Shown piece by piece: positions 3,226 through 55,089 of a stretch of DNA of 64,000 bases; the stretch's first letter is position 1; each line of letters opens with the position of its first letter. The notes beneath the pieces were generated by a model. It saw only the letters and a list, made by a program, of their open reading frames with translations. It searched no databases and was not told the DNA's origin. The stretch is from Trichobilharzia regenti. Lineage: Eukaryota; Platyhelminthes; Trematoda; Strigeidida; Schistosomatidae. The position numbers were made by a program, and so were the translations under genes. The DNA lies in the NCBI GenBank assembly GCA_944472135.2, contig OX235267.1, forward strand, positions 16,537,452 through 16,601,451. The letters are read 5' to 3'.

Positions 3226-3800
3226 TTGCCTCTTCTTGCTATGTGTATCTATCAATTTAACTGCTCCTGTGGAGTGGGTCAGTTACATAGGCCGTAAAAT
3301 TAGGCATGTTTCTCGTCGAATTTCTGAACATCACTCTGCATAGTTAATATCAGTAAAAAGTTTGAGCATTGTGGATTAGATCAAATGAAGTATAATTATA
3401 TTTTAATAGTTTACACACAATGTGATAAGTTTTGTTATTGGTAATATTTCGAGCAAAATTACCAATAACAAAACTTATCACATTGTGTGTAAACTATTAA
3501 AATATAATTATACTTTATTTACTCTGCATAGTGCTTAAGTAAAGGACAAACAAAATCTACTCGTAGCGCTATTCTATCTCATCTTGTGGATACAGAACAC
3601 AAGATTGACGTTAACCAGGCTTTCAAAGTCATTTACCGCATACCAACAAATCTTAATTTTGCCTTAAGAGTTCGATTACTAAATATTGTTGAGGTTGGCT
3701 GTTGGGATCCATATTAAGAAGCCTAATTTGTGCATCCAAAAGAAGTTGGTTAGTTCAGACATCATCCTTACCCGCTCGGTCATCCGAGCGTGGAATTTTC
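3226..3800 (+). pseudogene. PLE (family D) GIY-YIG endonuclease fragment, split by a foldback
   Basis: The frames contain CSCGVGQ, YIGRKIRHVSRRISEHHSA (part of a GIY-YIG domain) and, after an insertion at 3344-3520, the C-terminal segment AILSHLVDTEHKIDVNQAF ... FKVIYRIPTNLNFALR. This is the C-terminal endonuclease of Penelope-like retroelements, which nicks target DNA for primed reverse transcription. The same family is seen on the minus strand at 43560-44035. The RT domain is absent; frameshifts after LLNIVE make it dead. A (tat)n run at 3838-3870 follows. Confidence 0.7.
3344..3520. repeat. Foldback insertion with 58-bp perfect arms
   Basis: Arms 3388-3445 and 3458-3515 are perfect inverse complements (58 bp) around a 12-nt loop atttcgagcaaa. 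The insert is flanked by an 11-bp direct repeat actctgcatag at 3333-3343 and 3521-3531, so it splits the PLE fragment. The left part resembles a PLE terminal repeat (aaaagtttgagcattgtgg versus aaaacttgggcactgtgg at 4096). Confidence 0.8.
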
Positions 3801-9190: not shown

Positions 9191-9250
9191 AGTGGAATCC
9201 AGGATGCGCATTTCGTCCTATTTGGGACTCGTCATCTGGATGTACCTGCA
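9191..9250 (-). ncRNA. Hammerhead ribozyme remnant 1
   Basis: On the minus strand: stem I gtacatccag / ctggattcc, stem II gtcc...ggac around caaata, conserved gaaa after stem II, short stem III tgcgca, cleavage triplet atc. The core should read CTGANGAG; here it is ATGACGAG, so C3 is replaced by A. C3 pairs with catalytic G8, so cleavage is predicted lost. Confidence 0.8.
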
Positions 9251-9393
9251 CTTCTCAGTGAGTGATGATGTTCCCACTGAGGCTGGAACCCAGTGCCCAT
9301 AGTTTCAAGTGGTCTAGTGGATAGCACTTTGGCGCTTGAAACTATGGGCACTGGGTTCCAGCCTCAGTGGGAACATCATCACTCACTGAGAAA

Positions 9394-9453
9394 TGCAGGT
9401 ACACCCAGATGACGAGTCCCAAACAGGACGAAATGCACATCCTGGATTCCACT
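9394..9453 (+). ncRNA. Hammerhead ribozyme remnant 2
   Basis: Plus-strand partner of the inverted pair: gcaggtacacccag, core atgacgag, stem II gtcccaaacaggac, gaaa, tgcacatc, ctggattcc. C3 is A. Stem III is weakened by tgcaca. Confidence 0.8.
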
Positions 9454-17039: not shown

Positions 17040-20025
17040 TTGGCGAAAAGAATATTCGTTGTTCCGTAGCCATTCATTTGAAAATTCAACTTAAAACAAG
17101 CAATAAAGGTTAATAAAGCAGGATTTAATGAATTCATCAAATTTCGGTAGAACTCGTCAGCTGAATACTCTACATACACGGATATATATACTTTTGAAAT
17201 TACATAGGGAGATATAAGACTGATAAGTAAACAAACTACATTGAATTAATCATGCAGAAAGACGACAGGTGCGAATGTTTTCCAGATCATGTTCAAATAG
17301 ATAAGGCGAGAGAGAGTATGAGAGATCAAAATTAAGATAAATTGCATTACGCTTCAATTACATCACTTAGATAAACAATTAGTCATTAGGGAATATAAAG
17401 AGAATTGCAAACAGACTAATATCAATAGTAATAGTTAAAATAACAATTTTAATAGTGTTGAAGTGAGTTAAGATAATCTTACGGATAAAGCATAGATTTA
17501 AATGAATCAAGAATAATAATAATGATAGTAATAATAACAAAAATAAGAAGAAGAAGAGGTAGAATAATGGTAATAACAAGTAGAGAATAATAAGTAAAGC
17601 GTATTACCATGGTAGATTCAGAGTGACGACCATCTCCTTTTGTATACAGAGAGGTGGTTTGTAAATTCGAATTGCACAAGCCTCTGCAATTGCAAGCATC
17701 TTCTTGTTTCTTTGTTTGCTGACGATGGTGAATGACTTGACGGCGTCGATATCATGTCCGTAATCCACGAGATGTTTTGTTATTGAGGATTTTGGGACTT
17801 TGCACTCAGCTGTTTTCAACCATTTTGGCAAATGCTCCATCATGCGAGTAGACAATCGCCTTTCCGTACGACCTATATATTTGCTGCCACAAACACACTC
17901 AAATTGATATATGCAGTTTGAAGTGTCGAGGATTGGTGACTGGTCTTTCCCAGATTGTTGAAGCACTCGCTTGTTGGTGTTGAGGATAACAAGTTTTGCA
18001 GCATAATAAGTTCTCTTGATGGCTTTGTCAAGTCTTCGTTTCACTACTTCCTGTACGTCATCTCCTTTGAATGGCAAATTGATATAGACAGGTTTCTTTG
18101 GAACTGTTTGGATAGTTTTACAGGAGCTCATTTCTTTAGAATATTTAATTATGAACTTCTCAGGATATCCGTTCTTAGATATAATATCCTTCAGAGATCT
18201 TATTTCATGTTCAATAGTACTGTCAGAACAAATTTTCGTGCTCTATTGAACAGAGTTCTGACTAAGTTCTTTTTGTATTGGATTGGAACGAAGCTCTTGA
18301 AATGCATGTACTGTCCTGTCCATGAAGACTTTCTAAATATAGATCTTTGGATTGTGCCATCATTCATTTTGGTCAGAAGAACGTCTAGAAATTTAATAGT
18401 ATTGTTTTCCTCGTGTTCTACTGTGAAATTGAGATTTGGATGGCATGAATTGAATTTTATCAACATGTCTTCCGCTTTTGATCTGCTTTCACAGACAATA
18501 AAAATGTCATCAACATATCTTAGGTATGCATTTGTTTCTTGTATATGTTGCTGCAAAGCACCGGTTTCTAGGCGTGACAAGAATAAGTCTGCGAAAAGTG
18601 GTCCCAAAGGGCTTCCCATTGCGACACCATCAACTTGACGGAACAGACGCCCGTTGAATTGGAATTGGACATTTTTAGTACATAAAAGTAGTAATTTCCT
18701 CAATTCCGATGTTGGAATGGGTATGTCTTCAGCTTCTTTACATATGAAGTCGATAGTCTCAACGACTGGCACATTTGTGAAAAGGGAGGTAACATCGAAA
18801 GAGACCAAATGCTTATCGGATACATTGAAATCTTTAATTTGATTGACAAATTGAAATGAATCAGAGACTATATGTGTTCCGAAACGTTTCAGCAATGGCT
18901 GCAACAGTTCACATAACCACTGTGCTAATCTGTGGTATGGTGAGTTTATCATAGAGAGTATGGGTCTTAACGGCGCTCCTGGTTTGTGTATTTTTACGCG
19001 TCCGTATAGTTTTGGGATTTGTGACCCAATCGGTTTGATATTTTATATGTGTTTTCGTCAATGTATTTATTTTTGAAGAGTTGTCGTAGATGCTGCACAA
19101 TTTTCCTTTCGGTTGATAACGTTTGGTCTTTTGCATGGTTATCCAATTTGAATTTAGATTCATCAGAGAGAATTTGATTCATTTTTTCGAGGTAATCTAT
19201 CTTGTTCATTAGCACTACACTTTGTCCTTTATCAGCTTGTAAGATAACAAGATTTTTGTCTTTTCGGAGCTTGTTTAAAGATCTCCAGTGTTCTTTGGTG
19301 ATATGCGACTTTTGATTGGTTGGCATGACTCGAAATTGATGAGCAATATCAACCATCTTTGCTTTCAACCAGCTTTCGCTGTCACTGGACGTGGCATGTA
19401 GCCCTATAAGTTGATCATAAAGATTTTCGAATTGGCATTCGATATCAATTTGCTTTATCTTTTTCATGGGAACACAGAATTTGAATCCCAGTGACAGAAT
19501 TTCTGCTTGTTCTTTCGATAGGGAAATATCAGACAAATTATGAACATAATTAGATATATCCACTGGGAAAATTTCATTTGGCGGTTCCGGATGAAGTGAC
19601 TTCTTCAGTTTCTTTTCTTCTGATTCTTTTGTCTTTTTTGATGTGGCATGCAGATATTTAGTGAATTTAATATAACATACAAAGTTTAATTCATTTTGTA
19701 CACTGATCAGTTTACTTGACAATAGGCATAAATTACTGATTTCATCTGTTTCAGAACACAAATGTGATTCAGCAAGACGGTAAAGATTTGCCCGTGTAGG
19801 TCTCAAATGATCTTTACGCAAGGATTTGTAAAATGTTCGAGGATAAATATTATTCTGGATACATTCCTTCAAAAAATCTCGTCGTGCAGAGTGTTTAGCA
19901 ATCCTACACTTCAATTTCACTAGATCATTTAGTGCATTGATAGTGCTTTTTGGGAGACGCTTCTTCAAGAATTGAAAACATTTATTTCCCGATACGAATT
20001 TAAAACAAGCAATAAAGGTCTTACA
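17040..20025 (-). mobile_element. PLE (family A), minus copy, nearly complete
   Basis: Left arm of an inverted pair. 3' terminal repeat at about 17040-17220, coding 17604-19990, and 5' terminal-repeat sequence at 19972-20025 (tttatttcccgatacg, also found at the other end of the pair near 22090). Terminal repeats at both ends (pLTRs) are usual for Penelope-like elements. A (aataat)n-like run lies at 17510-17560. Confidence 0.85.
17604..19990 (-). pseudogene. PLE polyprotein (RT + GIY-YIG), family A minus copy
   Basis: Order on the minus strand: N-terminal region (19968-18994; KSTINALNDLVKLKCRIAKH, then NLVILQADKGQSVVLMNKID, the PLE DKG motif); RT core (18952-18200; DVTSLFTNVPVVETIDFICK, GVAMGSPLGPLFADLFLSRL, AYLRYVDDIFIVCESR = motifs A, B and C); then connector and GIY-YIG endonuclease (18131-17604; YQFECVCGSKYIGRTERRLS, then KHLVDYGHD and CIQKEMVVTLNLPW). 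Three frames are used, so at least two frameshifts inactivate it: one near 18985-19010 and one after FNRARK near 18235, shared with the plus copy. PLE RT is related to telomerase RT; the product would copy RNA at a nicked chromosome target. Confidence 0.88.
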
Positions 20026-22110
20026 TCTCCCTATGTAATTTCAAAAGTATATATACCCGTGTATGTAGAGTTTTCAACTTATCAGTCTTATATCTCCCTA
20101 TGTAATTTCAAAAGTATATATATCCGTGTATGTAGAGTATTCAGCTGACGAGTTCTACCGAAATTTGATGAATTCATTAAATCCTGCTTTATTAACCAGG
20201 AGCGACGTTAAGACCCATACTCTCTATGATAAACTCACCATACCACAGATTAGCACAGTGGTTATGTGAACTGTTGCAGCCATTGCGGAAACGTTTCGGA
20301 ACGTCTCTGATTCATTTCAATTTTTCAATCAAATTAAAGATTTCAATGTATCCGATAAGCATTTGGTCTCTTTCGATGTTACCTCCCTTTTCACAAATGT
20401 GCCAGTCGTTGAGACTGTCAACTTCATATGTAAAGAAGCTGAAGACATACCCATTCCAACATCGGGATTGAGGAAATTACTACTTTTATGTACTAAAAAT
20501 GTCCAATTCCAATTCAACGGGCGTCTGTTCCGTCAAGTTGATGGTGTCGCAATAGGAAGCCCTTTAGGACCACTTTTCGCAGGCTTGTTCTTGTCACGCC
20601 TAGAAACCGGTGCTTTGCAGCAACATATACAAGAAAAAAATGCACACCTAAGATATGTAGATGACATTTTTATTGTCTGTGAAAGCAGATCAAAAGCGGA
20701 AGACATGTTGATAAAATTCAATTCATGCCATCCAAATCTCAATTTCACAGTAGAACACGAGGAAAACGATACTATTAAATTTCTAGACGTTCTTCTGACC
20801 AAAATGAATGATGGTACAATCGAAAGATCTATATTTAGAAAGTCTTCATGGACAGGACAGTACATGCATTTCAAGAGCTTTGTTCCAATCCAATACAAAA
20901 AGAACTTAGTCAGAACACTGTTCAATAGAGCACGAAAATTTGTTCTGACAGTACTATTGAACATAAAATAAGATCTCTGAAGGATATTTTATCTAAGAAC
21001 GGATATCCTGAGAAGTTCATTAATAAATATTCTAAAGAAATGAGCTCCTGTAAAACTATCCAAACAGTTCCAAAGAAACCTGTCTATATCAATTTGCCAA
21101 TCAAAGGAGATGACGCACAGGAAGTAGTGAAACGAAGACTTAACAAAGCCATCAAGAGAACTTATTATGCTGCAAAACTTGTTATCCTTAACACCACCAA
21201 GCGAGTGCTTCAACAATCTGGGAAAGACCAGTCACCAATCCTCGACACTTCAAACTGCATATATCAATTTGAGTGTGTTTGTGGCAGCAAATACATAGGT
21301 CGTACGGAAAGGCGATTGCCTACTCGCATGATGGAGCATTTGCCAAAATGGTTGAAAACAGCTGAGTGCAAAGTCCCAAATTCCTCAATAACAAAACATC
21401 TCGTGGATTACGGACATGATATCGACGCCGCCAAGTCATTCACCATCGTCAGCAAACAAAGAAACAAAAAGATGCTTGCAATTGCAGAGGCTTGTGCAAT
21501 TCGAATTTACAAACCAGCTCTCTGTATACAAAAGGAGATGGTCGTCACTCTGAATCTACCATGGTAATACGCTTTACTTATTATTCTCTACTTGTTATTA
21601 CTATTATTCTACCTCTTCTTCTTCTTATTTTTGTTATTATTACTATCATTATTATTATTCTTAATTCATTTAAATCTATGCTTTATCCGTAAGATTATCC
21701 TAACTCACTTCAACACTACTAAAATTGTTATTATAACTATTACTATTGATATTAGTCTGTTTGCAATTCTCGTTATATTCCCTAATGACTAATTGTTTAT
21801 CTAAGTGATGTAATTGAAGCGTAATGCAATTTATCTTAATTTTGATCTCTCATACTCTCTCTCCCCTTATCTATTTGAACATGACCTGGAAAACATTCGC
21901 ACCTGTCGTCTTTCTGCATGATTAATTCAATGTAGTTTGTTTACTTATCAGTCTTATATCTCCCTATGTAATTTCAAAAGTATATATATCCGTGTATGTA
22001 GAGTATTCAGCTGACGAGTTCTACCGAAATTTGATGAATTCATTAAATCGTGCTTTTTTAAATTTTATTGCTTGTTTTTAATTGGTATCGGGAAATAAAT
22101 GTTTTCAATT
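20026..22110 (+). mobile_element. PLE (family A), plus copy, 5'-truncated with pLTR joined on
   Basis: Right arm of the pair. 20027-20190 holds terminal-repeat sequence, with a roughly 50-bp unit (cttatatctccctatgtaat...) twice in tandem; it joins directly at about 20190 to internal RT sequence (caggagcg...). The same terminal repeat returns at 21945-22065 after the stop. So a truncated body is flanked by direct terminal repeats, a common PLE arrangement. Confidence 0.8.
20190..21567 (+). pseudogene. PLE RT + GIY-YIG, family A plus copy
   Basis: Starts in the RT finger region (MINSPYHRLAQWLCELLQPL), then a frameshift near 20300-20340, then DVTSLFTNVPVVETVNFICK, GVAIGSPLGPLFAGLFLSRL and AHLRYVDDIFIVCESRS (YVDD intact), stop at 20969, and the connector/GIY-YIG frame 21040-21567 ending CIQKEMVVTLNLPW. 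Compared with the minus copy: AMGS to AIGS, FADLF to FAGLF, ETNAYL to EKNAHL. The frameshift after RARKF is identical in both copies. N-terminal 300 codons are absent. Confidence 0.85.
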
Positions 22111-37789: not shown

Positions 37790-37945
37790 AACCTCACATT
37801 TGGGCATTGGGTTGGAGCCTCGGTGAGAACATCATCACTAGCTGGGGAGTGCAGGTACATCCAGATGATGAGTCCCAAATATGACGAAATGCGCCTTATC
37901 CTGGATTCCACTGCTAGTCACCACCCACCAATTAAATTCTAAGGT
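37790..37945 (+). mobile_element. Smα-type retroposon, 3' half
   Basis: gttggagcctcggtgagaac (B-box region), atcatcactagctggggagt, hammerhead region, then tggattccactgctagtcac and caccaattaaattct. The A-box half is missing. Confidence 0.75.
37851..37912 (+). ncRNA. Hammerhead ribozyme remnant 3
   Basis: gcaggtacatccag, core atgatgag (C3 is A), stem II gtcccaaatatgac (one pair lost), gaaa, tgcgccttatc, ctggattcc. Predicted inactive. Confidence 0.8.
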
Positions 37946-41084: not shown

Positions 41085-41275
41085 TTTCATCATGAGCTGA
41101 CATTGGTTAGAGAACCATTGGAAAACCACCTGGGAGTACTGAACAGCTGTTTCGTCAGACTAGTTTGGGACTCTTCAACAGTACGCACCCACCGGGGTTC
41201 GAACCCAGGACCTTCTGGTTACCAGGCGAGCTCGTAGACCATGAAGACACTTGGACCCGATCCAATGGCCTATGA
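41085..41275 (-). mobile_element. SINE-C copy
   Basis: Inverse SINE-C: atttcatcatgagctgacat, gagaaccattggaaaaccac, ctgtttcgtcagactagttt, gggttcgaacccaggacctt, agcgctcgtagacc-like head. Confidence 0.7.
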
Positions 41276-44035: not shown

Positions 44036-45990
44036 CGGCCTCTTTGGACTCATCAGGGAAACGGGTGGGAGAAGACAAATCATTAGTGAGACAATCTCGG
44101 AAAAAAATGGCACTATAATTAGCTCACAGGATAGACGACTGGATCGTTGGAAAGAGCATTATGAGGAGCAGTTTAATTTGCCCACAGCCACGCTCAACCT
44201 TCCGAGCATCCAACACCTCCCTGAATGGGATATAAACACAGGTCCTCCGTCACTAACTGAGGTTACTAAAGCTGTCACCAATCTGAAACTAGGCAAAGCA
44301 GCGGGACCTGATGGAATGACTCCAGAGGTATTTAAGTACGGTGGAGACAGCTTACTGTCCGGATTAACTGAGGTACTAGGCAGCGTCTGGGAATCAGAAG
44401 AAGTCCCATCGGGTTGGTGTAAGTCACTGATTATCCCCATATACAAGAAGGGAGACAAGTCTTCCTGTGATAATCACAGAGGGATTAGCTTGACTAATAT
44501 AGTATCTAAAGTCTTAGGCTCAATAATCATGCGTAGACTGAGTGGTGCTCGGGAAGCACAAACACGAGAGAGCCAGGCAGGCTTTAGACCAGGAAGAGGG
44601 TGTATTGATCATATCTTCACCCTCCGACAGATTCTAGAACATAGGCATTCCTACCGGCGTCCAACAGTCATTATATTTCTTGACCTAAAGGCAGCATTCG
44701 ACTCTGTCGATCGGGAAGTTCTCTGGAGATGCTTGGCTGTAAAGGGAATTCCAAGAAAATATATTGCACTGATTAAGGCACTCTACTCGTACTCATACAG
44801 CCAGGTGAGGGCTTACGGCGAGCTGTCATCTGAACTGATGACGACCAGTGGTGTCCGTCAAGGATGCCCATTATCTCCTTTTCTATTCAACTTCATCATA
44901 GATGTGTTAATGGACTTAACCCTAGGTGACTTCAGCGACTCAGGGATTGACTTGCTACCGGGAATAATCTCGTTGACTTGGAATATGCAGACGATATAGT
45001 CCTTCTAGGCGAAGACGCTGACGAAATGCAGAGTCTTCTAAACACCTTGAGCCGCAATCTACGAATGTTTGGCATGCGATTCGCTCCCGCCAAATGCAAG
45101 ATGATGTTACAGGACTGGACTACATCGACGCCTAGTTTAAAAATAGGAAGTGAAGTGGTAGAGCACGTTGACCGCTTCACTTATTTGGGAAGTACCATCA
45201 GCCCCAACGGGCTGATCTCTGACGAAATCTCAGCACGAATACAAGGGGCTCGTTTCGCATTTGTTAGTTTACGCCGACTCTGGCGTAGACGAGATGTTCG
45301 ACTATCGACCAAAGGGCGGGTGTACTGCTCATCAGTCCGCTCCGTCCTCCTTTATGGTTGTGAGACCTGGCCACTGAGAGTGGAAGACATGAAAAGACTA
45401 GCTGTCTTTGATCATAGGTGCCTGCGTTCTATTTCCCGTGTAAAGTGGCATAATAAGGTGAGCAACATGGAGGTTAGGCGTAGAGTTCTAGGTAAACAGG
45501 GGAAATCAATCGACGAAGTCGTGAAGCTACAAAGACTGAGATGGTTAGGACATGTGTTACGTATGCCAAGCCATCGCCTCCCTCGACGAGCAATGTTAGC
45601 GGATATAGGGTCAGGCTGGAAAAAAGCTAGCGGCGGTCAAACAAAAACTTGGCATCAGTCAATGAAATCCACAACAGTTGGTCTAAGCCACGTAGGAAGG
45701 TGTAGACTTCCAGGCTGGGGTCCTCGGGACGGTAAAAATCTATGGTTGGAAACAATTGGTGACATGGCTCAAAATCGTTCTCAGTGGCGCAGATGCATCC
45801 ACTCCCTGTGACTTATGATCTTCAATGAAACTGTTTTGTATTTCTTTATTACTCCTTTGTCTCACACCTCTGCTCACTGTTTCTATTATGCTTTTCTTGT
45901 ACTTTCTTCTCTTGCTTCGCGTGCTACACGGAATGTGGCGACTTGAACTTCCGCACATTTGTGCAAAGTTCTATGTCGAAAACAGACAGA
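44031..45990 (+). pseudogene. RTE-like LINE (family 1), longest copy: RT and C-terminal domain
   Basis: Frame 44031-44999 has the RT fingers and palm: VTNLKLGKAAGPDGMTPEVF, GWCKSLIIPIYKKGDKSSCD, NHRGISLTNIVSKVLGSIIM, ESQAGFRPGRGCIDHIFTLR, VIIFLDLKAAFDSVDREVLW (motif A), TTSGVRQGCPLSPFLFNFII (motif B). A one-base deletion near 44960 shifts to frame 44978-45811: YADDIVLLGEDADEMQSLLN (motif C), TYLGSTISPNGLISDEISAR, LLYGCETWPLRVEDMKRLAV, LRWLGHVLRMPSHRLPRRAM, ending RSQWRRCIHSL. 3' UTR to about 45990. The apurinic endonuclease domain is missing (5' truncation at 44031). One lesion in about 590 codons: young. Role: nicking-primed reverse transcription of LINE RNA. Confidence 0.88.
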
Positions 45991-48097: not shown

Positions 48098-48156
48098 GTG
48101 GAATCCAGGATGTGCATTTCGCCCTATTTAGGACTCGTCAATTGGATGTACATGCA
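48098..48156 (-). ncRNA. Hammerhead ribozyme remnant 4
   Basis: Minus strand: catgtacatccaa, core ttgacgag (C3 is T), stem II gtcctaaatagggc, gaaa, tgcacatcc, tggattcc. Stem I also has G to A. Predicted inactive. Confidence 0.75.
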
Positions 48157-48497
48157 TTTCCCAGTGGGTAATGATGTTCCCACCGAGGCTCGAACCCAGT
48201 GACCTTAGTTTCAAATGCCAAAGCGTTATCCACTAGACCACTTTTACCACGAAAGCCATCTCTTGTGCAACGGGTCCTATTAATTTAATTGGATTTGAGA
48301 TTTTCCCGTCGATTGATTGGACCAAAACGCTCGGTTTCAGCTTGACATGTCGGCTTCTTGTGCAGATGCTTCAACGATGTCTGGGCATTTAATTACAATC
48401 TCGTGGCCCAAGTGGTCTAGTGGATAACGCTTTGGCGTTTGAAAATAAGGACACTGGGTTCGAGCCTCGGTGGGAACATCAATACTCACTGGGAAAT

Positions 48498-48559
48498 GCA
48501 GGTACATCCGGATGACGAGTCCCATATAGGACGAAATGCGCCTTATCCTGGATTCCACT
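48498..48559 (+). ncRNA. Hammerhead ribozyme remnant 5
   Basis: gcaggtacatccgg, core atgacgag (C3 is A), stem II gtcccatataggac, gaaa, tgcgccttatc, ctggattcc. Predicted inactive. Confidence 0.8.
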
Positions 48560-51420: not shown

Positions 51421-51623
51421 GTTTTTTATTTTATTATTTTATTTAAACGCATAAAAACTTGGTACAATATGGCACCAAGAAGGATGCGCCACACAATAAT
51501 AATAAAACAACACAGATCAAAAGTAAAAAAAGTATAAGTAGAGAACGGATAAAGAACTTCATCTGGAAGGAAAACAGTCATGCTTAACAAGTTCAAACAG
51601 TATTCGTTAACTATCATCAGGAA

Positions 51624-51902
51624 TGTTAGGAAGAGGCAAAACACATGCAATTATCAAGTTATTATCATGTCGTTGACATGCATTTGTTTCTGCTTTCTGA
51701 TTGGACGCTTGCACAATTCCAAACTCTCAACCGGATTGGTTGATTTCCAGTCTACCTTATTTTTGTATAAATACAGTCACTTTTGTCATAATAAATGATT
51801 CTGGTTTTACCGCTGATTATCGCGTGTTCTGCTTTACCAGTTAAGTGGGCACTGGTCAGTAGTTAAGCAGTTACCTCGAGACAAAGATCTAGCATCATAA
51901 CA
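51624..51902 (+). repeat. 5' LTR with promoter and polyA signals
   Basis: Contains two ATTGG (inverted CCAAT) motifs (ctgattggac, ggattggttg), a TATA-like tataaata at 51766-51773 and an aataaa at about 51790. Transcription probably begins shortly after the TATA box. Confidence 0.75.
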
Positions 51903-51989
51903 ATTGGCGACGGGGTTTCGAATCCATTGCAGTTCAATACAGTCAAATAAAAACCAGATCATCCAGTGTACATCCAGCCTGTCTTCCAA

Positions 51990-54761
51990 ATGACAATTTC
52001 ATTTGAACAAATGCAACTTCTCCTTCATCAACAACAGCAACAGTTTGAAGCTTGCCAGCTCAGCTTGATTGAAAAACTTACAAAGCAGTTTTCAATTCAA
52101 AATCTCGGCAGTTCCAACTCAGAGAAAACCGAATCTATTGGGAGTTCAATTGTAGAGTTCAATTTCGAACCTTCAACAGGCGTGACGTTTGAAGCTTGGT
52201 TTCGACGTTATGAAGATCTGTTCCGGGTTGAATGCGCTCACCTAGATGATTCGGCCAAAGTGAGACTACTCCTTCGGAAACTTGGTCCAGCCGAACATAA
52301 CAAATATGTCAATCATATTCTACCAAAGAACTCCAGAGAACTCAACTTTGAAGAAACCGTTCAAACGTTAACCAATATTTTCGGTGAACAGTTATCTCTC
52401 TTCAGTATCCGTTACAATTGTTTCAAGATATCCAAAGATCCAGGAGATGATATTCTCACCTATGCTGGTAAGGTGAATCGTGAATGCGAGCGATCGAAAA
52501 TTCGATCACTTACGGATGACCAGTTTAAATGCCTGATCTTTGTCTGCGGTCTCAAATCTTCAGTTGACAGTGATATTCGTACCCGAATCCTTGCAGAGAT
52601 TGAACGCAAACCGGACATGACTTTACAGGAGGTAACTGCTGAGTGCCAGCGAATCATCAATCTAAAGCATGACACGAAGTTGATTGAGGACGGTCAAGTT
52701 CATGAATTTACTTCTGTTCAGGCTGTCAAGTCAAACAATTCTCTGCAAGTCAAACACAAGCCTCCCACAAATTGTTGGTTTTGTGGATCGTGGCATTTTG
52801 GTAAATTTTGCCCGTATAAAAGACATAAATGCAGTATCTGTAACAAGTATGGTCACAAGGAAGGATTTTGTCCCCCAGTGAAACCTAGATCAATCCGATC
52901 TCACAATACGATGGCACAGTCACGAAAGTTTCGATCTCGGTCGACGAAACCTCAAATCAGCAGTATGTTCGCTACCTTCAAAGTTGACTTCGAGTCAAAA
53001 AGAAAGTTTGTCACACTTTCTATCAACCAGAAGCCAGTTCGACTACAGTTAGATACTGCTTCTGATATCACAAAAAAAAAAAAAAAGACGTGGCGGGCAC
53101 TCGGGTGTCCACCTTATCAGAGAACGGAGCATACTGCAAGAAACGCGTCGGGTGACGTAATGAAATTATCTGGCCAGATTGAATGCGACGTAACTTTCCG
53201 GTCGACCTCGTTCCAAGGAACATGCTACATCACCAATCGTCATGATTTGAACTTGCTTGGTATTGACTGGATCGAAAAGATGAAACTCTGGGATGTCCCA
53301 CTGAACTCAGTTTGTTCCAATGTACAGTGCTCAGATAGTCCTACCAACATGTTGATGCATCCGAACTCGACCGCAAAGGAGGACGCTGTGATCGCCGGCG
53401 TTTCTGTCGATGAAGACGTGTGCCACGTATTGATGACGGCAATAAACACTTTACCTGTCTCAGCCGACATGGTTCAACGAGAGACGCAGCGTGACCCGAC
53501 ATTACAGTCAGTTCAACAGTATCTGCGTTGTGGCTGGCCCTCGCGTATTGATTGTCCAGATTTAAAACAGTTCTATCAACGACGACATTCGTTATCCCTG
53601 GTCAATGACTGCATTATGTTTGGCGAACGTGTGGTCGTGCCTCGAAGTCTCCAACAAAAAGTCATGAGTCAACTACATTTTACGCATCCTGGTATTGGCC
53701 GTATGAAATCGTTGGCACGCTGTTACGTCTACTGGCCAAATATCGATCGTGAATTAGAAGCGATGGTTCGCTCATGTTCTCGCTGTGCTCAGGCTTTGAA
53801 AATGCCTATCAAGACAGACCTACAGCCGTGGCCCAACCCAGGAAAACCGTGGTCAAGAATCCACATAGATTTTGCCGGCCCAATCAATGGCAAACAGTTT
53901 CTCGTGGTAATCGACGCGTATTCCAAGTGGCCGGAGGTTTTCATTATGCAAAATACCACAGTGACGATAACATTAAATAAGTTGGTTCAGCTTTTCAGCA
54001 GATTTGGTGTTCCAGAGATCATCGTTTCCGATAACGGACCTCAGTTTACAGCTGAACAATTCAAACAGTTTTGTGAGCGGCTAGGTGTTCAGCATATTCG
54101 CAGCCCGCCTTACCATCCTCAGTCAAATGGACAAGCAGAGCGTTTTGTTGATACACTCAAGCGCGCACTTCAGAAGTCAAACGGGGAGGGATCGATAGAG
54201 GATGTATTGCACAATTTCCTCTTCATTTATCGAACCACAACCAACCCATCATGCCCAAATCAAACATCTCCCGCAGAAGTTATGTTTGGAAGAAGATTAC
54301 GTACTACTTTGGATACAATTATCCCGATCCCATCAAGACGGAGCAAATGTGGTCGAAATAGTGAATTTTGGTTCAATAGACGTCATGGCACCAAGCAAAG
54401 AAGTTTCATGGTTGGTCAGTCGGTACTGGTTCGTGATTACATACGGAGAGATCGCCCATGGGTTTCTGGAGTGATCGTTGGAAGAAAAGGCCAAGTCATT
54501 TACAAGGTCAAGGTTGGAGACCTTATTTGGGTCAGGCATGCCAATCAAATAAGAAATAGACTAGTTGGTAAACAGTTGAACGATTCCAAGTCCGCCGACG
54601 TACAATTTGAGCTATTGATAGATACGACGGATCCGAAAACGTCACATGGCCAAAATAGTCGAAACAAAGGCAAAGTGTCCCAGCAGCCAAGGAGATCACA
54701 ACGACAACCAAGACCGCCAAAGTACCTACAAGTGATTCCGCGATACAAAAGCTACCGGTAG
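51990..54761 (+). CDS. Gag-protease-integrase polyprotein, in-frame loss of RT and RNase H
   Basis: About 923 codons from the ATG at 51990 (the frame is open from 51966, but there it starts GTG). Gag: FNFEPSTGVTFEAWFRRYED; two zinc knuckles at about residues 262-290 (CWFCGSWHFGKFC and CSICNKYGHKEGFC, the latter CX2CX4HX4C). Protease: LQLDTASDIT at about 355, followed by a 15-A run (53072-53086) that turns the next residues into KKKKK; downstream flap/dimer part RHDLNLLGIDWIEKMKLWD. Then, at about 53390 (NSTAKED/AVIAGVS), the sequence passes straight into integrase: H2C2 zinc finger (HFTHPGIGR ... CSRC), core HIDFAG, SDNGPQF and GQAE with D-35-E spacing, and a basic C-terminus. RT and RNase H, roughly 500 residues in Gypsy elements, are absent without a stop. 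The product could package and integrate DNA but cannot make it. Confidence 0.9.
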   Translation: MTISFEQMQLLLHQQQQQFEACQLSLIEKLTKQFSIQNLGSSNSEKTESIGSSIVEFNFEPSTGVTFEAWFRRYEDLFRVECAHLDDSAKVRLLLRKLGPAEHNKYVNHILPKNSRELNFEETVQTLTNIFGEQLSLFSIRYNCFKISKDPGDDILTYAGKVNRECERSKIRSLTDDQFKCLIFVCGLKSSVDSDIRTRILAEIERKPDMTLQEVTAECQRIINLKHDTKLIEDGQVHEFTSVQAVKSNNSLQVKHKPPTNCWFCGSWHFGKFCPYKRHKCSICNKYGHKEGFCPPVKPRSIRSHNTMAQSRKFRSRSTKPQISSMFATFKVDFESKRKFVTLSINQKPVRLQLDTASDITKKKKKTWRALGCPPYQRTEHTARNASGDVMKLSGQIECDVTFRSTSFQGTCYITNRHDLNLLGIDWIEKMKLWDVPLNSVCSNVQCSDSPTNMLMHPNSTAKEDAVIAGVSVDEDVCHVLMTAINTLPVSADMVQRETQRDPTLQSVQQYLRCGWPSRIDCPDLKQFYQRRHSLSLVNDCIMFGERVVVPRSLQQKVMSQLHFTHPGIGRMKSLARCYVYWPNIDRELEAMVRSCSRCAQALKMPIKTDLQPWPNPGKPWSRIHIDFAGPINGKQFLVVIDAYSKWPEVFIMQNTTVTITLNKLVQLFSRFGVPEIIVSDNGPQFTAEQFKQFCERLGVQHIRSPPYHPQSNGQAERFVDTLKRALQKSNGEGSIEDVLHNFLFIYRTTTNPSCPNQTSPAEVMFGRRLRTTLDTIIPIPSRRSKCGRNSEFWFNRRHGTKQRSFMVGQSVLVRDYIRRDRPWVSGVIVGRKGQVIYKVKVGDLIWVRHANQIRNRLVGKQLNDSKSADVQFELLIDTTDPKTSHGQNSRNKGKVSQQPRRSQRQPRPPKYLQVIPRYKSYR

Positions 54762-54781
54762 CCCTATCTTAAAAGGGGAGG

Positions 54782-55061
54782 TGTTAGGAAGAGGCAAAAC
54801 ACATGCAATTATCAAGTTATTATCATGTCGTTGACATGCATTTGTTTCTGCTTTCTGATTGGACGCTTGCACAATTCCAAACTCTCAACCGGATTGGTTG
54901 ATTTCCAGTCTACCTTATTTTTGTATAAATACAGTCACTTTTGTCATAAATAAATGATTCTGGTTTTACCGCTGATTATCGCGTGTTCTGCTTTACCAGT
55001 TAAGTGGGCACTGGTCAGTAGTTAAGCAGTTACCTCGAGACAAAGATCTAGCATCATAACA
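54782..55061 (+). repeat. 3' LTR
   Basis: As the 5' LTR with one inserted a. Near-identity indicates insertion in recent evolutionary time, because both LTRs are made identical at integration. Confidence 0.9.
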
Positions 55062-55089
55062 AGGAAGAGAAGAAAGAAGGAAATTGCAA

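Follow-up and report, generated by a model that had tools for sequence, protein, structure and literature searches.

A young Ty3/Gypsy element without reverse transcriptase, probably part of a multiplying non-autonomous sublineage in a fluke genome

The DNA considered here is a window of 64,000 nucleotides (C6:16537452-16601451; "the window" means this whole stretch), which at 51624-55061 contains a Ty3/Gypsy-type long terminal repeat (LTR) retrotransposon from which reverse transcriptase (RT) and RNase H are missing. The locus raises the question of whether such an element is a single dead copy or belongs to a lineage that multiplies with an RT made elsewhere, as had been proposed from the letters of the stretch alone (below, the sequence-only reading). 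The window's own assembly (954 Mb, 548 contigs) was searched for copies with and without RT. Judged by the copies found there, the element is very probably a young member of a non-autonomous, multiplying Ty3/Gypsy sublineage, with RT presumably provided by complete siblings. The proposal is borne out by 18 junction loci, 17 insertions as counted by their flanks, 8 different perfect target duplications and a scar common to 9 loci.

RT-less copies and the type B scar

A 71-base junction query was used for the search, and 40 of 110 candidates were scored, of which 16 matched in full and 24 only in the part that starts at base 12 (53371). The junction of the RT-less copies occurs in two types. The type A pattern was found at 9 places with up to 3 mismatches (reversed control: 0), and the type B pattern at 9 other, non-overlapping places (control: 0). 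The edge between RNase H and integrase, which is absent from RT-less copies, was found at 88 places with up to 3 mismatches (69 exact; control: 0), and 9 of these 88 edge loci were fetched; RT-less junctions make up 18 of the 106 edges counted. Fifteen loci (L011-L025) each align with the window element across the junction, and two further RT-less loci were fetched. Confinement of the junction to this one locus was the outcome that the sequence-only reading had named as speaking against itself; the junction is not unique, since 18 loci of this genome have it.

L013 and L014 are the only pair among the 18 with both flanks in common and were therefore counted as one duplicated insertion, which leaves 17 insertions. 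The two are oppositely oriented and separated by 5 kb (C2:83.30-83.31 Mb), either as an inverted duplication of one insertion or as an assembly palindrome, with 56 changed bases in one copy vs 15 in the other. The remaining flank matches (51-354 bp, 67-92%) run between non-corresponding sides and represent other repeats; for L020, L031 and L032, one flank each was compared. Perfect 5-bp target duplications, all different, are present at 8 RT-less loci (AGGAA, GATAG, CTTTC, GAATG, ATCAG, ATTTT, GCTCC, CATGC), six of which are type B loci (L018, L021, L022, L023, L024, L025), and the LTR pairs of 7 RT-less insertions differ by 0-3 substitutions (window, L013/L014, L018, L019, L021, L024, L025).

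Descent of RT-less copies from RT-less copies is indicated by the 4-base scar of the type B junction, which was found in 9 RT-less loci, exact in 7 and with one further change in 2 (L019, L032), and in 0 of the 88 RNase H/integrase edges within 3 mismatches. Together with the six different perfect target duplications of type B loci, this distribution indicates that scar-bearing RNA templated new scar-bearing copies. Type B comprises an old copy (L031, 45 changed bases) as well as copies with low-divergence LTR pairs (1-3 substitutions; L018, L019, L021, L024, L025), and such a spread of ages under one scar is predicted by descent from RT-less templates, not by recurrent deletion from complete elements. 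A second marker is a C at frame position 1771, carried by 10 of the 18 RT-less copies and by none of the 8 RT-bearing ones (Fisher p 0.0095, a value that ignores relatedness and belongs to the best of many sites; other such sites gave p of at least 0.06).

Three things expected of a non-autonomous derivative amplified in trans were found: the enzyme needed for the element's own copying is lost, the same deleted form is inserted several times at different target sites, and a complete partner with matching LTR, primer-binding site (PBS) and polypurine tract (PPT) is present in the same genome.

Anatomy of the element and its deletion

The features of the window copy are as follows.

51619-51623, unstranded: target-site duplication, left copy AGGAA (from the sequence)
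51624-51902, + strand: 5' LTR, 279 bp, TG...CA
51903-51925, + strand: PBS region (ATTGGCGACGGGG...)
51990-54761, + strand: open Gag-protease-integrase frame, 923 codons plus stop (ATG at 51990, stop at 54759-54761)
52131-52391, + strand: gag-type domain PF23309, DUF7083 (Pfam)
52773-52871, + strand: two zinc-knuckle motifs, residues 262-294
53010-53276, + strand: retropepsin-type protease, PF13975/PF13650, just under the curated cut-offs (Pfam), with DTAS at residue 355
53072-53086, + strand: A run of 15 bases, probably an assembly placeholder
53371-53378, + strand: deletion junction, the single remaining CCGCAAAG (two in RT-bearing copies, 1392 bp apart)
53637-53795, + strand: integrase zinc-binding domain, H2C2 (Pfam)
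53847-54119, + strand: integrase core (Pfam stretch) with D627, D681 and E717, the last just past the Pfam stretch
54771-54781, + strand: PPT AAAAGGGGAGG
54782-55061, + strand: 3' LTR, 280 bp, TG...CA
55062-55066, unstranded: target-site duplication, right copy AGGAA (from the sequence)

Most structural claims of the sequence-only reading were confirmed. The two LTRs show 0 substitutions over 279 aligned bases, their sole difference being a 1-bp indel; the target duplication aggaa is perfect (51619-51623 identical to 55062-55066); PBS (from 51903) and PPT (54771-54781) are intact; and the frame of 923 codons is open from the ATG at 51990 to the stop at 54759-54761. Within this 923-residue protein, no RT or RNase H domain was detected by Pfam and no YxDD motif was found. 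The integrase has 35 residues between D681 and E717 and the HHCC pattern. Judging by the LTR and body measures, which agree, the window copy is very young; no further copy of the element is present inside the 64-kb window.

Ty3/Gypsy character is indicated by LTRs of the form TG...CA, target duplication, PBS and PPT, and Ty3 Gag-Pol is the best sequence match among solved structures. RT and RNase H upstream of integrase are missing from the window copy and occur in that order in its sister copies and in proteins such as P0001-P0003, so that the window copy is to be regarded as a deletion derivative of a Ty3/Gypsy family and not as a full member. The closest named protein is a 285-residue fragment from Trichobilharzia regenti (95% identity over 225 residues), whose first residues match the RNase H end of the RT-bearing sister copies; for Schistosoma, the host assumed in the sequence-only reading, no support was obtained. 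No tRNA gene was found in the window (ARAGORN), and no primer tRNA was assigned; a serine tRNA may serve as the primer. In one scan of viral contigs, 9 stretches matched the search pattern, and none of these encoded a relative.

In RT-bearing copies, the stretch that is missing here begins after ...CCGAACTCGACCGCAAAG and ends at ...TATAACAAGCCCGCAAAG before GAGG. The two CCGCAAAG repeats lie 1392 bp (464 codons) apart in every one of the 7 fetched copies that have both edges (L026, L028, L029, L030, L033, L034, L035); for L033 and L034 this distance was taken from neighbouring aligned pieces (ends at 1905 and 1900, starts at 3298 and 3293, 1392 for both), and what was fetched of L027 and L036 includes nothing ahead of the junction. 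This 1392-bp stretch holds RVT_1 and two RNase H models (Pfam, one copy scanned). The loss is accordingly in frame, as had been claimed, and smaller than the supposed 500 or so codons. The junction had been placed at about 53390 and lies at 53371-53378, in the 8-base CCGCAAAG; the protease, taken for a remnant, is left uncut by the deletion and is instead marked by the A run at 53072-53086, just behind DTAS.

The two edges form an imperfect direct repeat (12 of 15 bases alike, CCGCAAAG exact), one CCGCAAAG of which is retained in RT-less copies; among 200,000 random breakpoint pairs 1392 bp apart, 675 share at least 8 bases. Type A junctions carry the left repeat version, and type B junctions read AACAAAGCCGCAAAG, with 2 differences from the right version and 4 from type A. 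On the simplest reading of these sequences, types A and B would be two separate deletions within the same repeat.

In RT-less copies, neither a stop nor a frame-shifting gap was found at 8 of 18 loci (window, L011, L015, L021-L025), 3 of which carry an A-run patch (window, L011, L015); 4-base gaps at the junction in the frame comparison are alignment ends. Six A runs of at least 11 bases (11-29) were detected, all within copies of the element (window, L011, L015, two in L019, L028), and no T run of at least 11 bases occurs in the same 264 kb (window plus L011-L030). All six are A on the assembly's + strand, including one inside a minus-strand copy. L015 and L019 have the run at the same place, and the run at 53072-53086 is peculiar to the window copy, being absent from all 19 other loci with sequence there. 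The likeliest cause of these runs would be an assembly placeholder.

Elsewhere in the window, two closely similar sets of reading frames lie inverted to each other (17604-19968 on the - strand, 20363-21567 on the + strand). They may be Penelope-like elements. Six matches to the type I hammerhead ribozyme (9197-9447, 37859-37906, 41136-41184, 48103-48553) and one to mir-3492 (45173-45250) exceed the Rfam cut-offs; all lie outside 51624-55061, and none was obtained inside the element.

Complete siblings, mixed history and rival explanations

The frame runs uninterrupted through 1386-1387 codons in 4 of the 7 RT-bearing copies in which both edges are present, one of them with a 29-base A run; in the other three it is broken, by a stop at codon 14 in L035, by missing parts and a stop in L033, and by an interruption in gag in L034. 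The 1392-bp stretch varies by 0-1 bases among the 4 open copies. Four RNase H/integrase edges on one strand (G000:C4:93122443, 93129345, 93136073, 93142801; spacing 6.9, 6.7 and 6.7 kb) are possibly a tandem array containing a complete element. Between the window copy and one RT-bearing haplotype, a single base differs in about 2,700, with deletion and A run excluded. Of the loci checked, 13 of the 18 without RT and all 5 with RT have an exact PBS, and 16 of 18 and 5 of 5, respectively, an exact PPT plus LTR start. LTRs of about 280 bp are found in the RT-bearing copies L030 and L036, and LTRs of 300-311 bp or partial matches in others. It would be a natural inference from these likenesses that the complete copies supply RT.

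A tree of the shared parts is nearly star-like. A single clade of all RT-less copies was neither demonstrated nor rejected (approximately unbiased (AU) test, p 0.163 for a first tree and 0.495 for a second). The first tree omits L027, and the second the partial copies L027, L032, L033, L034 and L036; according to the program, the bootstrap was unsettled in both. L015 and L019 were joined in the first tree only via their common A-run patch, and this clade disappeared without the patches.

Several results weigh against a simple lineage of multiplying RT-less elements. A single clade is rejected for type A and likewise for type B (AU p 2.3e-5 and 7.8e-6), which means that the history is not one simple tree; the rejection arises because L022, a copy of type B, is placed with the duplicated pair L013/L014 of type A (100/98), on the strength of eight common bases spread along the frame. 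Such a grouping could result from recombination between co-packaged RNAs or from two deletions within a single parental line. Type A, taken alone, is compatible with recurrent deletion, and an RNase H/integrase edge with the scar and at least two further changes would escape the 3-mismatch pattern. The target duplication has one mismatch in L015, L017 and L019 and is not convincing at L013/L014 and L016; L011, L020, L031 and L032 lie outside this comparison. In some copies, the two LTRs differ from each other by more substitutions than the body shows bases changed from a complete copy (L012, 17 vs 4; L015, 8 vs 1; L023, 7 vs 2), so that LTR dating is unsafe there; the excess points to exchange or conversion. 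That the lineage is active at present would be a conclusion from the youth of its copies. Finally, the frame is uninterrupted in only the 8 of 18 loci named above, and the protease of the window copy itself bears an A run.

The sequence-only reading had also pointed out that the element still offers its own Gag and integrase; that these are kept by selection found no backing in the variants. Relative to the RT-bearing haplotype, 33 nonsynonymous and 11 synonymous (N:S) singletons and 9:2 shared variants were counted in 13 young copies (L014, L017, L020, L031 and L032 left out), with a neutral expectation of 3.0. No signal of purifying selection on the remaining frame is thus seen in the N:S of these copies, and a neutral ratio gives no ground for holding that the element's supply of its own proteins matters. 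That the frame is open can be put down to youth or to exchange with complete copies.

The main alternative to descent among RT-less copies is that each of them was deleted anew, at the same repeat and during its own reverse transcription, and never became a template. In its favour are the direct repeat at the breakpoints, the inseparability of RT-less and complete copies on the tree, and ten RT-less loci lying only 1-4 bases from one RT-bearing haplotype, with patches and junction excluded (window, L011, L012, L015, L018, L019, L021, L023, L024 and, at 3 bases, L025). It would also suit the flatworm homologues described below, which lost RT at other junctions and for the most part have an RT-bearing sibling (8 of 13, 90-100% identical). 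For type B it is contradicted by the scar, common to 9 loci and found at 0 of the 88 edges, and C at position 1771 in 10 of 18 RT-less vs 0 of 8 RT-bearing copies speaks against it further. As an account of the whole set of copies, it is improbable.

Much less credit is due to a misassembly, by which long reads across near-identical complete copies would have been misjoined and RT lost. The A-run patches in several copies do hint at consensus trouble; however, the same deletion is present in the old, diverged copies L017, L020 and L031 (82, 79 and 45 changed bases), and two junction types, 17 insertions distinct by their flanks and an RNase H edge assembled at 88 places are hardly what a collapse would leave. 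Equally far-fetched is a spliced retrocopy, in which an intron comprising RT and RNase H would have been spliced out of the RNA before copy-back: the loss is precise and in frame, and copy-back of spliced RNA has been described for L1 (PMC5860796), but the exact 8-base repeat suits template switching better. Among the possible placements of an intron within this repeat, which include GT...AA and TT...AG, there is none with GT...AG.

The preferred course of events, descent of RT-less copies from RT-less templates, could then be pictured as follows. RT would have switched templates at the direct repeat and so produced the deletion, probably on two or more occasions (types A and B). Short-form RNA may be packaged, perhaps partly in its own Gag, alongside RNA or enzymes of complete siblings, whose RT would copy it, and the integrase of either form could insert the resulting DNA. 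Recombination with co-packaged RNAs would hold the remaining sequence nearly identical to that of the complete family.

Related forms and meaning

Homologues without an RT Pfam domain number 13 among the best 120 of 667 protein matches, a share that is biased upwards by the RT-less query; one of them, P0028, retains part of RT. Eight of the 13 have a sibling with RT that is 90-100% identical in the parts common to both, and the junctions of these homologues differ from that of the window element. P0004, the Schistosoma haematobium form, represents a cluster of 28 sequences, and a second cluster, of 4 (P0138), shares its protein junction. Gene models or database proteins, in which predicted introns are possible, account for seven of the 13 (P0004, P0028, P0038, P0048, P0053, P0070, P0084), and for the other six (P0033, P0047, P0051, P0062, P0063, P0116) the longest contig, of 2.5-3.4 kb, cannot accommodate a full element. 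One family (P0047, P0116, P0036) occurs as a complete form and two deletion forms with 99-100% identity elsewhere, one deletion form being without RT/RNase H and the other without protease too. From these protein comparisons, RT-less Gag-integrase forms seem to be recurrent in flukes.

Deleted elements carried by complete relatives are known from mammals. In the mouse IAP IΔ1 elements, Gag and Pol are fused into one open frame by an internal deletion, proteins are supplied in trans and multiplication is strong (PMC6466679). The fused open frame and, in all likelihood, the carriage by complete relatives are what the window element has in common with them. The 1.9 kb missing from IAP IΔ1, a mammalian endogenous retrovirus (ERV), take in part of gag and pol, whereas the window element, a Ty3/Gypsy element of a fluke, loses RT and RNase H only; the IAP IΔ1 fusion protein is reported to act in cis, and in the lineage described here the comparison extends to an open frame at 8 of 18 loci. 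The defective D-type elements of bovine ERVK[2-1-LTR] are trans-complemented by complete elements and recombine with them, as parasites of a parasite (PMC10924933). They likewise are deleted elements carried by complete ones; they have no intact genes and make up 85% of their catalogue, in contrast to 18 of 106 edges and an open frame at 8 of 18 loci in the lineage described here.

TR-GAG elements retain gag only. TRIM and LARD are non-autonomous LTR elements in which most or all coding sequence is lost (PMC4558846). Non-autonomy, LTR, PBS and PPT are shared between these three groups and the window element, which differs from them by its protease and integrase, the three groups being defined by no coding sequence or gag only. 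In Schistosoma mansoni, Nonaut-1.1, -3, -4.1, -5 and -6.1 are listed in a review as LTR-group elements, and their name suggests non-autonomy (PMC8293314); the likeness to the window element consists in LTR group and name. The combination of retained Gag, protease and integrase with lost RT and RNase H was not found in the open-licence literature, as covered by titles and abstract beginnings. The principle is therefore known from IAP IΔ1 and the bovine D-type ERVK, and the make-up of retained and lost domains appears, by this comparison, to be new.

Tentatively, and with somewhat less than even confidence, the two RT-less strains, formed at the same direct repeat, may be seen as long-term parasites of a complete Gypsy family that contribute Gag, protease and integrase and exchange sequence with it in mixed particles, and RT loss with retention of integrase may be recurrent in flatworm Gypsy families. 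The loss of RT and RNase H alone, with Gag, protease and integrase retained, would separate the parts of an element that can be borrowed from those that are carried along, and since the scar marks descent and the same genome contains complete siblings that differ by only a few bases, trans-mobilisation, mixed packaging and recombination of LTR elements would become directly testable in a group of parasites.

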